Source: Planctomycetota bacterium
GTDB taxonomy: Bacteria; Planctomycetota; UBA1135; UBA2386
Length of the DNA stretch: 36,130 nt
Assembly: GCA_020425925.1 (NCBI GenBank)
Contig: JAGQRB010000892.1
Span: forward strand, 1 to 36,130
Direction: 5' to 3'
Numbering within the stretch: position 1 is the first letter of the stretch; every line of letters starts with the position of its first letter. Position numbers and translations under genes: made by a program. Shown here piece by piece: positions 2,314 through 10,597 of the stretch. A model generated the notes under the pieces. That model was not told where the DNA came from, did not search any database, and saw nothing but the letters and a program-made list of their open reading frames with translations.

Positions 2314-2333
2314 GCGGCCAGCCGAGCGGCCGC
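2314..2333. terminator. Short inverted repeat between convergent genes
   Basis: GCGGCC (2314-2319) pairs with GGCCGC (2328-2333) around an eight-base loop, within the 20-base gap between two convergent genes and touching the kinase stop codon. There is no T-tract. It could act as a weak bidirectional terminator, but GC-rich palindromes are common by chance here. Confidence 0.3.
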
Positions 2334-4114
2334 TACTGGTCGCAGCTGCCGGCCGGGCGCTCGCCCCCGGTGACGCGAGCCAGCGCCTCGGTCAGCGACT
2401 CGAGGCGCACGGGCTTCGGCAGGAAGTCGTCCATCCCGGCGGCGAAGCAGGCCTCGCGGTCGGAGTGCATCGCGTTCGCGGTCAGCGCGACGATCGGTGT
2501 CCGCTCGCGCATGTCGCGGCGTTCGGAGTCACGGATCGCGCGGGTTGCCTCGAGGCCGTTCATCCCGGGCATCTGGCAGTCCATCAGCACGACGTCGAAC
2601 GGCTGCCGACCGAACGCGATCGTCGCCTCGACGCCGTCCTTCACCACGGTGGCGGTGCAACCGATCTTCTCAAGCATCCGGACCGCGACGCGCTGGTTGA
2701 TCGGATTGTCCTCGGCGAGCAGCACGTTCAGGCCGAGCTTCGGCGTACCGCTCTGCGCCGGCGCAGTCTCGACCCGCGCCGCCGGCTCCGGCCTCCTGGC
2801 GCGCAGCAGCTGCTCGACGAGTTCGTGACGCCGGACCGGCTTGCGCAACGCCGAGGTGAAGCCCGCGCGCCGCATCACGTCCGGAGTCATGCCGTGGTAG
2901 GCCGACGACAGCAGGATCAGACCGTGCGCCGGCACGAGCGAGCGGGCCTGCAGCTCGGCGGCGAGCTGCACGCCGTCCTTGTCCGGCATCAGGTAGTCGA
3001 GGATCGCCACGTCGAACGGGTGATCCGGCTTCGCTGCGGCCAGCAGCTCGATCGCCTCCTCGGCGCGGCTGCAGTCGGTGAGCTCGACCTGCAGCGGCCG
3101 CAGCTGCCAGCGGACGACCTGCCGATTGATCGGGTTGTCGTCGACGAACAGCACGCGCATGCCGACGAGCGAGGCCTCGGCCGGCGGGGCCACCCGTGCC
3201 GCGGGTGCCGCGACGCGGATGTAGAACCAGAAGCGACTGCCCTTGCCCGGCGCGCTCTCGAGGCCGATCCGGCCGTCCATCAGCTCGACGAGCTGCCGGC
3301 AGATCGACAGCCCGAGGCCGGTGCCGCCGTAGCGCCGCGTCGTCGACTCGTCGGCCTGGGTGAACGGCTGGAACAGCCGCGCCTGCGCCGCCTCGGAGAT
3401 CCCGATCCCGTCGTCGCTGACCTCGAACCAGACGTACTCGTCATCGTCCTCGCGGGCGAGCCGCGAAACCCGCACCCGCACGTCGCCCTGGTGCGTGAAC
3501 TTGATCGCGTTGCCGACCAGGTTGACAAGGATCTGCCGCAGCCGGTCGGAATCGCCGAGCACGCGCGGCGAGACGTCTGGCATCACGAAAGAGGTCAGCT
3601 CGACCTTGTTCTGCGCCGCCCGCTCGCTGAGCAGATCGAGAACGTCGGTGACCATCGACTCGATCGAGAACTCCGACTGCGTGAGCTCGACCTTGCCGGA
3701 CTCGATTCGCGACAGGTCGAGCAGATCGTCGATCAGCAGCAGCAGCGCGTCGCCCGACCGCTGGATCGTCTCGATGAGCTCGGTCTGGTACTCGTCGAGC
3801 TCCGTCGACCGCAGCAGGTCGGCGACGCCGACGACCCCGTTCATCGGCGTGCGGATCTCGTGGCTCATGTTCGCGAGGAACGCGCTCTTCGCACGATTCG
3901 CGACCTCGGCCGACTCGACCGCCGCACGCAGCTCGCGCGAGCTGCACTCCATCGCCCGCTCGATCGTGTAGCGGTCGGCCTCGTTGTCGTCGTACGTGCG
4001 GCTGATCCGTCGCAGCAGATCCTGCCACGAGGCGACGTCGGACGGCGGCGCCGCCCGATCGCATCCGGCCCGCCGCAGCTGGCGGGCGAGCAGCTTGTTC
4101 AGCTCGTCCGCCAA
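2333..4114 (-). CDS. Soluble hybrid histidine kinase with two receiver domains
   Basis: 593 residues with no signal peptide or membrane helix, so cytoplasmic. A helical N-terminus leads into HisKA with [11 protein letters not shown] (His85 is the expected phosphoacceptor). The HATPase domain at about 195-305 has the N box ([10 protein letters not shown]), DDGIGI, FQPFTQ and GGTGLGLSI. Receiver 1 begins at [14 protein letters not shown] and has phosphoacceptor context [11 protein letters not shown]. Receiver 2 begins at [13 protein letters not shown], with [11 protein letters not shown], a TALTAN switch region and a PKPV lysine. All key residues are present. It starts one base after the FIST gene stops, so the two are almost certainly co-transcribed and FIST probably supplies the input. 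There is no output domain, so a separate phosphotransfer or response protein is expected elsewhere. Confidence 0.95.
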
Positions 4115-4115
4115 G

Positions 4116-5261
4116 TCAGCGCTCGATTTCCTGGATCGTCGTCAGGGTCATGGTCTGGTTGTGCAGATCGCAGGTGCCGTCGGCATGCGGCGAGATCTCT
4201 CCGTAGGAGTAGAACCCCACCATCGACGTCGCCGTCGGCAGCGCCTCGAGCGTGACCTCGACCTCTTCCTCCGTCCGCTCGCCGAGCACGAGTCGGCGAC
4301 CGACGCAGCTGACCGCGATCGCCAGCGTCGTCAGGGCGTTCTCGTCCTCGCGACGGGCGTGGGTCGCGGCCGCCGCGGCACCGTCGATCAGCCGCTCGAA
4401 GTTGGCCTTCATGAGGCGCGCGATCCAGCCCTCGGAAACGTCGCCCGCGAAGGTCATCGACTGCTTGGCCTCGTCGACCGCCAGGATGGTGCGAACGACC
4501 GAGTTCTGGTCGTCGAAGCGCGCACGGATCGCGAGCGGGAACAACAGTCCGGTGGCCGGCAGGCCGGCTGCGCGCTCACCGAGATACTCCTTGTAGAGCG
4601 CGAGCGCCGGTCGACCGTCCAGCTCGTAGAGCACGTTGCCCTCGGAGCGCGTGATCACACGTTCTGGCCCGAACGTGTCCCAGCCGCCGCGCGAACCGTG
4701 GCCGAAACGGACCGCGTCGCCGTAGAAGCCGATCGCGGCGACGATGCCCGAAGTCGGCTCCGGACTGCCGGCGACGACCCACGTCCGCTCGAAGCGACTG
4801 CCGTCAGCGGCGAGACCGCCGGTGATCGGGATCCGCGGGCCGAGCGACTTCGTCAGGCCGCCGACCAGTTCGGTGCCGTTGACCTGCAGGCCGTCCGACA
4901 GCACGAGGACGCCACGCAGATCCGTCGCATCGAGCTCGCCGCCGATCCGCGTGCCACATTCGCCGGCGCCACCGACGGCATCGATCGCGCAGGTCGACAG
5001 CCGGAGCGAGGTGTGCTCGAAGCGGGCGACCGCGACGACCAGCGTGTCGTCGAGCACGTCGTCGCCGAACACTTCGCCGGCGCTCGAGCAACCGACCAGG
5101 ATCGCCTCGCGGAAGTGCGATCGGAGCTCCCGGATCGGCGTGTTGTCGTCGCAGTACGAGCTCGCCCCGAACAGGATCACCAGGGTCTGTGGCCCGTCCA
5201 GAGCTGGCATGGGCTCGGACCAGCCTTGGCTGCGGGAGTAGCGCAGTGTCTTGAGTATCAT
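4116..5261 (-). CDS. FIST-domain sensor protein (FIST N and FIST C)
   Basis: 381 residues. The frame runs upstream of this start, but [11 protein letters not shown] at 5261 has a good ribosome binding site and begins the conserved domain. FIST N features include [32 protein letters not shown] and the [19 protein letters not shown] region. The C-terminal part ([38 protein letters not shown]) is typical of FIST C. FIST proteins are proposed ligand-binding signalling modules found with histidine kinases, GGDEF and methyl-accepting proteins; the ligand is not established here. There is no export signal, so an intracellular cue is likely. The downstream partner is the hybrid kinase. Confidence 0.93.
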
Positions 5262-5266
5262 GACAT

Positions 5267-5272
5267 TCCCTC
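5267..5272 (-). promoter_or_regulatory. Ribosome binding site of the FIST gene (GAGGGA)
   Basis: GAGGGA lies five bases before ATG 5261 on the minus strand. It decides the start of the FIST gene over the longer open frame reaching 5351. Confidence 0.6.
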
Positions 5273-5394
5273 GATCCCCCCATCGGCGCAGCGCCGAGCC
5301 GGGATCCAGGCAGGGCCCGGCCGGTCGATGCCACCGGCCGACCGCGACCATGCCGAACTCGCCTACCGCAACCGGCTTCGGACGCGGTCGTCGG

Positions 5395-6006
5395 TCAGAA
5401 CTCGACGAACTCGCCGAGCATCGCGTCGGCCGGCTCGGGGGCGAGCGCGTACAGCACGACGTCGCCGAGCTCGCGACGGGTGAGGTGCAGCCGGCTTCCG
5501 GCCGGCAGCTCGACCCCCGGGTCGGCGGTGCGCGGCACGACGCAGACGCAAACCGTCCGCTCGCCGTCGCGCGCGATCAACATCATGCAGTCGCCCACCT
5601 CGCGCCCGCAGTAGTCGCCGAGAACTGCGACGTCGCCGGTGCCGCGCACACCGATCCGGCAATCGAAGTGATCCTGACACGCCTGCGGCAGATCGAAACC
5701 GGTGCCGCAGCAACCGCCCTGGAAATCGCTCGCCGCGGCGTCCTCGTAGGCGGCGGCCCAGAGGGCACCGAGCTCCGCGCCGCGGCCGACCGGGGCCGAC
5801 GCTGTCCGCGAGACCAGGACCAAGGCGATCGCCAGCAGGGCGGCCGCAGCCGCGAACCACGGCCAGGCGGGGCGCGGACCGGCTGCCGGATCGACGACGC
5901 GCTGCGCCGCGGCCGCGAAGTCGCGTTCCGGTGGCGGAGCGAACGCGGCACGCAGCAGCTCGTCGATGCGCTCGTCGGGCCCGCGATTCGTATCCGGATC
6001 GTTCAT
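5395..6006 (-). CDS. Cysteine-rich single-pass membrane protein, candidate anti-sigma factor
   Basis: 203 residues. The start overlaps the end of the ECF sigma gene by four bases (ATGA), the usual arrangement of sigma/anti-sigma pairs. Residues 1-45 are polar and presumably cytoplasmic (ERIDELLRAAFAPPPERDF). One membrane helix follows at about 48-66 (WFAAAAALLAIALVLVS), and the rest should be outside the membrane. This outer part holds eight cysteines, in GGCCGTGF, QACQDHFDC, GDYC, GDC and TVCVC contexts. I do not see the H-x3-C-x2-C zinc motif of ZAS anti-sigma factors, so the assignment rests on position and topology. The outer cysteines suggest redox or metal sensing, or simply disulphide stabilisation. 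Confidence 0.8.
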   Translation of the reverse strand: MNDPDTNRGPDERIDELLRAAFAPPPERDFAAAAQRVVDPAAGPRPAWPWFAAAAALLAIALVLVSRTASAPVGRGAELGALWAAAYEDAAASDFQGGCCGTGFDLPQACQDHFDCRIGVRGTGDVAVLGDYCGREVGDCMMLIARDGERTVCVCVVPRTADPGVELPAGSRLHLTRRELGDVVLYALAPEPADAMLGEFVEF

Positions 6007-6560
6007 CGCACCTCTCCGACCGGACGCCGCGCGCCGAGGGAATCGCGCAGCATGAGGCGGGCGCGGCGCACGTGGCTCGCGACCGTATTCTCCGGGATGG
6101 CCAGCATGTTCGAGACCTCGGCGAACGACAACTCCGTCACGACGTGCAGCATGAGACAGGCCCGAGCGACCTCCGACAGACCGGCCAGGCCGGCCGCGAG
6201 CTCGTCGCCGCAGCCGAGCTCATCGGCACCGGCCGCGCCGCGCGCGGCGTCGGCAGGGGCGACCGTAGGCACGACGGTCGGTGCCGGTGGATCCGGCAGC
6301 AGATCCGGACCGACGGCAGTCGGGCGCCGGCGCCGCCGCCAGTTGGCTCCGAGGTGACGCGCGATCTGTGCGAGCCACGCCCGAGCGTCACTGCCGAGCT
6401 CGAACCGGTCGCGCTGCTGCCAGGCCAGGCGCGCAGTCTCCTGCACGAGGTCCATGGCCTCCTCGCGTCCGACCCAGGCCGCGGCGAGCACCCACAGCGC
6501 ACGCCCGTGCCGGGCGAACGCCGTCGTGAACTCATCGGGCCCGAGAATCGGTCGCACCAT
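6003..6560 (-). CDS. ECF-type RNA polymerase sigma factor
   Basis: 185 residues. Sigma region 2 covers about residues 12-80 (FARHGRALWVLAAAWVGREEAMDLVQET, then DARAWLAQIARHLGANWRRRRR). A Pro/Ala-rich linker with GCGDE follows, then sigma region 4 at about 125-175 (LSEVARACLMLHVVTELSF, then a helix-turn-helix in AEVSNMLAIPENTVASHVRRARLMLRD). Length and layout fit ordinary ECF factors. The gene sits between the Cys-Cys-rich peptide gene (12-base gap) and the membrane anti-sigma candidate (overlap). A perfect hairpin abuts the start codon, leaving no room for a normal ribosome binding site, so translation may depend on the upstream gene. The target regulon is unknown. Confidence 0.93.
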   Translation of the reverse strand: MVRPILGPDEFTTAFARHGRALWVLAAAWVGREEAMDLVQETARLAWQQRDRFELGSDARAWLAQIARHLGANWRRRRRPTAVGPDLLPDPPAPTVVPTVAPADAARGAAGADELGCGDELAAGLAGLSEVARACLMLHVVTELSFAEVSNMLAIPENTVASHVRRARLMLRDSLGARRPVGEVR

Positions 6561-6590
6561 CCGGCCGACAGACTATCGGCCGGTCGCACC
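6550..6590 (-). promoter_or_regulatory. Hairpin flanked by direct repeats immediately before the ECF sigma start codon
   Basis: A perfect eight-base inverted repeat, CCGGCCGA (6561-6568) and TCGGCCGG (6576-6583), has a seven-base loop that contains the stop codon of the upstream peptide gene. It ends directly against the sigma ATG (6560). Identical nine-base copies of GGTCGCACC lie outside it at 6550-6558 and 6582-6590. In mRNA this would fold over the region where ribosomes load, suggesting translational coupling or attenuation. Confidence 0.5.
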
Positions 6591-6857
6591 GCTGGGGCCA
6601 CAGCAACCGCCGCCGCCGCAGCAGCCGGACTGCGACTGCTCGGGCGCGGCAACGGGCGCCGCCGGGGCCGCGGCCGGCTGCTCGCAGCACTCCGGCGGGC
6701 AGACCTCACAGCACTCCGGCGGGCACGGCTCGCAGCACGCCGGCGGACAGGCCTCGCAACATCCGGGTTCACAGCACTCGCCGCCGGCCGGAGCACTGCT
6801 GCCGCCGAAGGCCGAAGCGAGAAAGAGGCACAGGACCGAGTTCCAGAGCGTGTTCAT
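6573..6857 (-). CDS. Small secreted Cys-Cys-rich protein
   Basis: 94 residues. A signal peptide-like start (MNTLWNSVLCLFLASAFG) is followed by near-repeats of the form C-C-E-x-C-P-P: ECCEPGCCEACPPACC, EPCPPECC, EVCPPECC. Then come an Ala/Pro linker and a tail with SGCCGGGGCCGPSG. By my count there are 17 cysteines after the signal peptide, mostly as adjacent pairs. I recognise no family. Such spacing could bind soft metals or form a disulphide-knotted wall or secreted peptide. It is the first gene of a tight unit with an ECF sigma factor and a Cys-rich membrane protein. I chose the start from the signal peptide; the open frame continues upstream into antisense of the aminotransferase and is not meaningful there. 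Confidence 0.75.
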   Translation of the reverse strand: MNTLWNSVLCLFLASAFGGSSAPAGGECCEPGCCEACPPACCEPCPPECCEVCPPECCEQPAAAPAAPVAAPEQSQSGCCGGGGCCGPSGATGR

Positions 6858-6923
6858 GCCGTGCTGATGTCGCGAGCCGCCGGATCTCGTGCACCGATTC
6901 CCGAATTCCGCCGACCCCGGCGC

Positions 6924-9835: not shown

Positions 9836-10597
9836 ATGCACATCACCACGAGACTGCTCGCCCCGCTAGGGTTCGTCGGCGCGGCGATCCTTCCACTCGC
9901 ACTGCAGGGGTCGCCCCTGAAGCGGGCCTACGTGACCGGTGAAGGTTGGCGTGCCCTGACGCTCGCCGATTTCGTCAACGTCAACGGCAGACCCGACACC
10001 TGGAAGGAGCAAGACGACGTGATCATCTGCTCGGGCCAGCCGCTCGGCGGTGCCCGCACCAAGACGCCGTACACCAACTTCGAGCTCGTGCTGGAGTGGA
10101 AGCACTCGGATCACGCCGGCAACTCGGGCCTGTTCCTGTGGTGCCCGGAGGAAGCATTCGTCGACCTGCCGGCAGGCAAGCTGCCGCGCAGCGGCATCGA
10201 GGTCCAGATCCTCGACCTCGGCTACGAGGAGGACTGGCTGAAGTCGAAGGGCAGCCATTCCGACTGGTTCACGAGCCACGGCGACGTCTTTCCGGTCGGC
10301 AGCTCGAAGATGACCGCGTTCACGCCGAAGATCGCCTACGAGGCCGCGGACGGCTCGAGCTACGAGGTCGGCAACGACCAGAGCACGCGCAGCTTCCCGA
10401 TCCGGCGCCTCACCAAGGCGGCCGGCGAATGGAACCACTACTACGTTCGCGCGATCAACGGCGAGGTGCGGCTGTGGGTCAACGGTGAGGAGGTCAACGG
10501 CGGCCGCGGCTGTCAGCCCGCGACCGGTTATCTCGCGCTCGAGGCCGAAGGTGCCCACGTCGAATTCCGCAACCTGCGGATCCGCGAGCTGCCCTGA
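9836..10597 (+). CDS. Secreted DUF1080 (3-keto-disaccharide hydrolase-like) protein
   Basis: 253 residues with a signal peptide (MHITTRLLAPLGFVGAAILPLAL, residues 1-23). The rest is one concanavalin-like domain: WRALTLADFVNVNG, FELVLEWKHSDHAGNSGLFL (the 'F.L..E.K...ANSG.F.R' signature region of DUF1080), SGIEVQILDLGYEE, TKAAGEWNHYYVRAINGEVRLWVNGEEV and GYLALEAEGAHVEFRNLRIREL. DUF1080 proteins are abundant in Planctomycetota; some members cleave 3-keto-glycosides, others only bind. I cannot identify a catalytic set from sequence alone. A short tandem repeat begins at its stop codon. Confidence 0.93.
   Translation: MHITTRLLAPLGFVGAAILPLALQGSPLKRAYVTGEGWRALTLADFVNVNGRPDTWKEQDDVIICSGQPLGGARTKTPYTNFELVLEWKHSDHAGNSGLFLWCPEEAFVDLPAGKLPRSGIEVQILDLGYEEDWLKSKGSHSDWFTSHGDVFPVGSSKMTAFTPKIAYEAADGSSYEVGNDQSTRSFPIRRLTKAAGEWNHYYVRAINGEVRLWVNGEEVNGGRGCQPATGYLALEAEGAHVEFRNLRIRELP

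Follow-up and report, generated by a model that had tools for sequence, protein, structure and literature searches.

The window, a 36,130-nucleotide stretch of a contig from an uncultured planctomycete, carries three complete, adjacent genes, all on its minus strand. From first to last transcribed, these encode a cysteine-rich peptide (6857-6573; 94 aa and 18 cysteines, read from the translation), an ECF sigma factor (6560-6003; 185 aa, recognized by its Pfam domains), and a single-pass membrane protein (6006-5395; 203 aa), whose assignment as an anti-sigma factor draws on a profile, an AlphaFold2 model, and its gene overlap with the sigma factor. In the window, 12 bp separate the peptide stop from the sigma start, and the sigma and membrane protein genes share an ATGA overlap. 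The first-pass annotation had described a peptide gene, a sigma gene in the middle, and a gene for a cysteine-rich membrane protein at 5395-6857; both the make-up and the coordinates are correct.

The sigma factor contains only sigma-70 regions 2 and 4, at about 20 kDa, which is the definition of an ECF factor. Its matches to Sigma70_r2 (1.5e-8) and Sigma70_r4_2 (5.4e-10) both lie above the Pfam cut-off. It carries two cysteines and has no C-terminal cysteine-rich extension.

The membrane protein is probably the anti-sigma factor that holds this sigma factor back. It adjoins an ECF gene, crosses the membrane once, and has a short cytoplasmic N-terminus, all of which characterize membrane anti-sigma factors. 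Its AlphaFold2 model (mean pLDDT 88) has two short N-terminal helices, a transmembrane helix, and then a helix and a mixed alpha/beta outer domain. The predicted cytoplasmic anti-sigma region (residues 1-47; 5866..6006, minus strand) includes modeled helices at residues 9-21 and 27-38 and the motif D-x3-D-x2-LR-x-AF-x-PP; D11, D15, R19, and P25 are invariant in the alignment of anti-sigma homologues. The transmembrane helix (residues 48-68; 5803..5865, minus strand) is supported by both the model and the hydrophobic sequence, and the outer sensor domain follows (residues 75-203; 5398..5784, minus strand), with C99-C100, C110, and further cysteines. All eight cysteines (99, 100, 110, 116, 133, 140, 153, and 155) lie after the transmembrane helix, and C99 and C110 are invariant in the same alignment. 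The earlier description of a single-pass protein with eight outer cysteines and no ZAS motif is thereby borne out, and a ZAS anti-sigma factor was rejected, since Hx3Cx2C is absent and no cysteine precedes residue 99.

Class I anti-sigma domains comprise four helices, three of them in a bundle (PMC7406223). Like the class I anti-sigma factors RseA, RskA, ChrR, and RsrA, the window protein is encoded beside an ECF factor; unlike them, it lacks Hx3Cx2C, has two short helices before the membrane in the model, and carries its cysteines outside the membrane. Its distant homologues have longer N-termini, and its cytoplasmic part is possibly a reduced class I domain. The only family match of the protein is weak (NF052375, 19.7 bits against a cut-off of 100). 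In a fold search with the model, PDB and viral structures gave no match with an E-value of 0.001 or below; RseB/MucB came closest (E = 0.03), a likeness that we judged too weak to use.

The peptide has one cysteine in its hydrophobic N-terminus and 17 after it. The first-pass annotation had counted about 17, together with C-C-E-x-C-P-P near-repeats, and the translation agrees: the CCE-x-C-PP repeats occupy residues 27-60 (6678..6779, minus strand), and CCGGGGCC lies close to the C-terminal end. No Pfam or NCBIfam family matches the window peptide, and Pfam returned no metallothionein match. Export had also been claimed. The hydrophobic N-terminus favors this, but the usual lysine or arginine is absent there in most members, including the window peptide; we consider the peptide probably exported on the strength of its hydrophobic start.

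The first-pass annotation had proposed a search for the trio in other genomes. We find the three genes kept together in 20 Planctomycetota genomes: 18 of the 34 genomes in the window's family and two more in its order. Those relatives that carry names came from a profile search of contigs and are Planctomycetota MAGs; many of the genomes compared are incomplete. Of 154 genomes in the order, 22 have an anti-sigma homologue; within the family, the figure is 18 of 34. The gene directly before it encodes a homologous sigma factor, in nearly all cases with the -4 (ATGA) overlap. The annotation had also made its idea depend on conservation of the peptide gene beside the pair, and the gene is conserved there: 21 of the 23 order loci examined have a di-cysteine peptide ORF before sigma. 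No gene beyond the trio is kept across the group, and an upstream block is shared by 5-7 loci. A larger operon with fixed neighbors was thus rejected, and the trio is the unit. It is a real, conserved module.

Some details of individual loci are worth recording. Directly downstream of the trio in the window, on the same strand (2333-5351, minus), lie genes for a FIST-domain protein and, judging by sequence, a protein resembling a hybrid histidine kinase; neither is conserved at other loci. At locus L044 (G124:C78, about 10349-10534), the anti-sigma frame is interrupted, with its parts in different frames and a run of X between them, probably through masking or misassembly. One genome holds two near-identical copies of the peptide-sigma region (L037 and L051; G145:C243 and C330), which either duplicated recently or were created by the assembly.

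Across the 21 loci, window included, a peptide ORF with 12-23 cysteines lies directly upstream of the homologous sigma gene, at a spacing of 6-71 bp (a rule was used to pick the gene starts at the related loci). The peptides share a hydrophobic start and cysteines arranged mostly as CC pairs, and fall into two chemistries: one is Pro/Glu-rich, with CCPPECC, and the other is longer and Lys/Ala-rich, with GECCD-like units (L030, L032, L034, L038, and L041). Overall sequences are divergent, and cysteine columns outlast other columns in most close pairs. Between the window peptide and that of G137, for example, 16 of 19 cysteine columns are kept versus 29 of 72 others; in two divergent pairs, the two kinds of column differ little.

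The low-complexity sequence and the lack of a Pfam family could indicate that the peptide ORF is no real gene and that GC-rich repeats produced it by accident. The chance of this is negligible: peptide, promoter, and hydrophobic start recur at 21 loci, cysteine columns are preferentially kept, and cysteine codons show synonymous TGC/TGT changes. Under a stringent di-cysteine criterion (at least 4 CC in 100 aa), 19 of the 21 peptides and 8 other frames in 324 kb qualified, compared with zero frames in Markov-shuffled controls. Conservation, shuffled controls, and cysteine retention together rule out a spurious frame.

We identify a predicted sigma-dependent, autoregulatory promoter, TGCACG-N15-CGACATC, at 6866..6893 (minus strand), with 8 nt between its end and the peptide start codon. 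It is the single perfect match in the window's 7.76-Mb genome. The broader pattern TGCANK-N15-NRACAT, scanned within 160 nt of the peptide, occurs at 19 of 21 peptide loci, compared with 0.012 expected from shuffled sequence, and its spacing is fixed. It is found 21 times in 647 kb of summed strands, and 20 of these matches precede such operons (the 19 peptide loci and L048). A TGCAAG/TGCAAT-N15-CGACAT-like site also precedes sigma, in the equivalent position, in 10 of 15 peptide-less relatives (L048, L120, L119, L138, L136, L137, L139, L141, L143, and L144), from which a promoter can tentatively be deduced for a broader set of planctomycete ECF factors. A motif before the operon at peptide loci, with a related site before sigma in relatives, is what one would expect of an ECF promoter under autoregulation. 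Thus, the operon looks autoregulated by its own sigma factor.

A wider regulon was considered and rejected. Sites with at most one mismatch number 16 in the window's genome, against 4 for reversed-pattern controls, and offer no convincing further target; exact matches elsewhere in the family genomes precede no cysteine-rich peptides of this kind. The sigma factor could nevertheless have other targets through degenerate sites. Because the peptide gene is first in the operon and orphan copies away from the sigma pair were not detected, the peptide is most simply read as the dedicated output of the circuit. The first-pass annotation had envisaged a functional unit in which a secreted thiol-rich peptide and a thiol-rich sensor report redox or soft-metal state to an ECF factor. 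The unit itself is supported by co-conservation, by the shared promoter before the peptide, and by the matching distribution of cysteines in peptide and sensor; the promoter suggests that the peptide is mainly an output, though it may also report the signal.

The cysteines of the sensor vary with the presence and type of the peptide. Across Planctomycetota, distant anti-sigma homologues still have the outer domain and a sigma gene in front of their own, and are mostly cysteine-poor and without a peptide. All 20 peptide-linked sensors have C110 plus one or both of C99-C100. C110 is present in 20 of 20 peptide-linked and 0 of 16 peptide-less anti-sigma factors (Fisher p = 1.4e-10, a value that ignores relatedness; for the 14 remotest homologues, C110 was assigned by eye from sequences and profile alignments). 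None of the loop cysteines 131, 133, and 140 is present in the five sensors whose partner peptides are Lys/Ala-rich; the other 15 sensors each have at least one. Two peptide-less sensors, L120 and L138, carry 6-7 outer-domain cysteines in a different pattern.

This linkage raises the tentative idea that the peptide is a co-sensor, which would dock on the sensor or form a mixed disulphide with it, its thiol or metal state setting anti-sigma activity. In this form, which is compatible with our main reading, CC-x9-C of the anti-sigma factor would read whether the peptide holds free thiols or metal, and more peptide would be made only when the thiol sink is exhausted. The restriction of C110 to peptide-linked loci and the pairing of the five Lys/Ala-rich peptides with sensors lacking loop cysteines both favor such a role. 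On the sigma tree, however, the peptide/C110 and loop-cysteine patterns need three changes each, and the AU test does not reject a single origin for either (p = 0.30 and 0.24, respectively). The supported transitions are too few for a test of independent origins of peptide-sensor coupling. The linkage is thus suggestive of repeated co-evolution rather than proof of it, and we regard a co-sensing peptide as rather unlikely.

The same pattern bears on whether the peptide is instead a disulphide-crosslinked structural protein of the envelope or matrix, made upon envelope stress sensed by the anti-sigma factor. Peptides of two relatives have below-cut-off matches to eukaryotic di-cysteine structural families, namely Keratin_B2_2 (L044; E = 1.7e-4) and the Galaxin repeat (L041; E = 1.5e-5), and the weak fold likeness of the model to RseB/MucB points the same way. 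But the matches fall under curated cut-offs and reflect composition, the window peptide itself has no match of the keratin or galaxin type, and a structural role leaves unexplained why C110 occurs only with the peptide. We therefore consider it distinctly unlikely.

With a confidence of about one half, we propose that the trio is a periplasmic stress circuit responding to thiol damage or soft metals, with the anti-sigma factor as sensor and a secreted cysteine-sink peptide as output. In unstressed cells, the single-pass anti-sigma factor would tether sigma at the membrane through its N-terminal two-helix segment. Thiol damage in the periplasm, or thiophilic metal ions there (the Cu(I), Ag, Hg, or Cd class), would engage the outer CC-x9-C cluster, and the anti-sigma factor, changed or destroyed, would free sigma to transcribe its own operon from TGCACG-N15-CGACATC. 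The secreted di-cysteine peptide, as the promoter-proximal product, would then chelate metal or absorb oxidant, so that the signal falls and a negative loop closes, with new anti-sigma factor made simultaneously.

The chemical nature of the signal can be read in two ways. In one, the circuit is unchanged and responds to stress from oxidants, disulphides, or electrophiles, the peptide being a sacrificial thiol/disulphide buffer with no role in metal binding. Vicinal cysteines in both sensor (C99-C100) and peptide (CC) suit thiol/disulphide chemistry, and in the Lys/Ala-rich peptide type the CC units are set apart from one another; dense cysteines with glutamate and proline suit metal binding equally well, however, and no redox enzyme is prominent among the 25 of 69 neighbor families listed. 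Nor do these 25 families include a conserved metal-transport or thiol-repair gene. A purely redox signal is a credible minority possibility. We slightly favor metal, because of the density of cysteines with acidic residues and the analogies with SigF-NrsF and bufferins.

Several known systems resemble the trio in part. In SigF-NrsF, periplasmic cysteines of NrsF matter for the response to chromium and cadmium, and NrsF has six transmembrane segments and two conserved cysteines (PMC3511200). Buf1 bufferin clusters include sigma and NrsF genes, and bufferins are secreted peptides that chelate copper (PMC12452194). The operons of this type in Caulobacter and others share with the trio an ECF sigma factor, a membrane anti-sigma factor with periplasmic cysteines (functional in NrsF), and a co-encoded secreted cysteine peptide. 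Unlike them, the trio has one transmembrane helix, eight cysteines, no adjacent MNIO gene, and a peptide without a family match; with a single membrane helix and no NrsF Pfam match, its anti-sigma factor is not an NrsF.

Bufferin clusters also contain genes for MNIO enzymes and their partners, and for precursors that carry a DUF2282 or Buf2 signature (PMC12452194). MNIO genes (PF05114) occur in 18 of the 34 family genomes, on other contigs or far away; 9 of the 18 genomes that have the trio encode one, as do 9 of the 16 that lack it. The peptide might be a bufferin-like RiPP precursor modified by such a distant MNIO: the window's genome (G000) has two MNIO genes, both away from the trio's contig, and known MNIO substrates include cysteine peptides with signal peptides (PMC12452194). 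But half of the trio genomes have no detected MNIO, the two show no association (Fisher p = 0.74), and no MNIO lies inside the trio neighborhoods by coordinates, making this highly improbable. With MNIO genes distant and unassociated, and no DUF2282 precursor signature in the peptide (Pfam, NCBIfam), the trio is not a bufferin cluster.

In CorE, the cysteine-rich domain is on the sigma factor itself and cytoplasmic (PMC8999054). CorE and CorE2 of Myxococcus, both metal-dependent, resemble the proposed circuit in that a cysteine cluster controls the ECF factor's response to metal; the trio's sigma factor, with two cysteines and no extension, is not of the CorE type. Nor does the trio coincide with CnrYXH. 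That system of Cupriavidus places an ECF factor under an anti-sigma protein with a short N-terminus and a metal sensor in the periplasm, but these are two different proteins, and the circuit drives an efflux pump; in the trio, sensor and anti-sigma factor are one protein, and the proposed output is the peptide. The first-pass annotation knew of no described system of this make-up, and we found none in the literature searched.

An ECF circuit with a secreted cysteine peptide is a known theme, and the trio is a new variation in its parts. The mechanism we favor is a circuit comparable to SigF-NrsF-bufferin and built from different parts. In this compact gene set, the ECF system appears devoted to a single secreted cysteine-rich peptide, without bufferin-type modifying enzymes. 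If true, a sigma-controlled, secreted sink for thiol stress or metals arose more than once from different parts. The trio also contributes a candidate sensor domain to which no solved structure comes close, as well as a promoter, deduced from sequence, for planctomycete ECF factors of a so far uncharacterized group.
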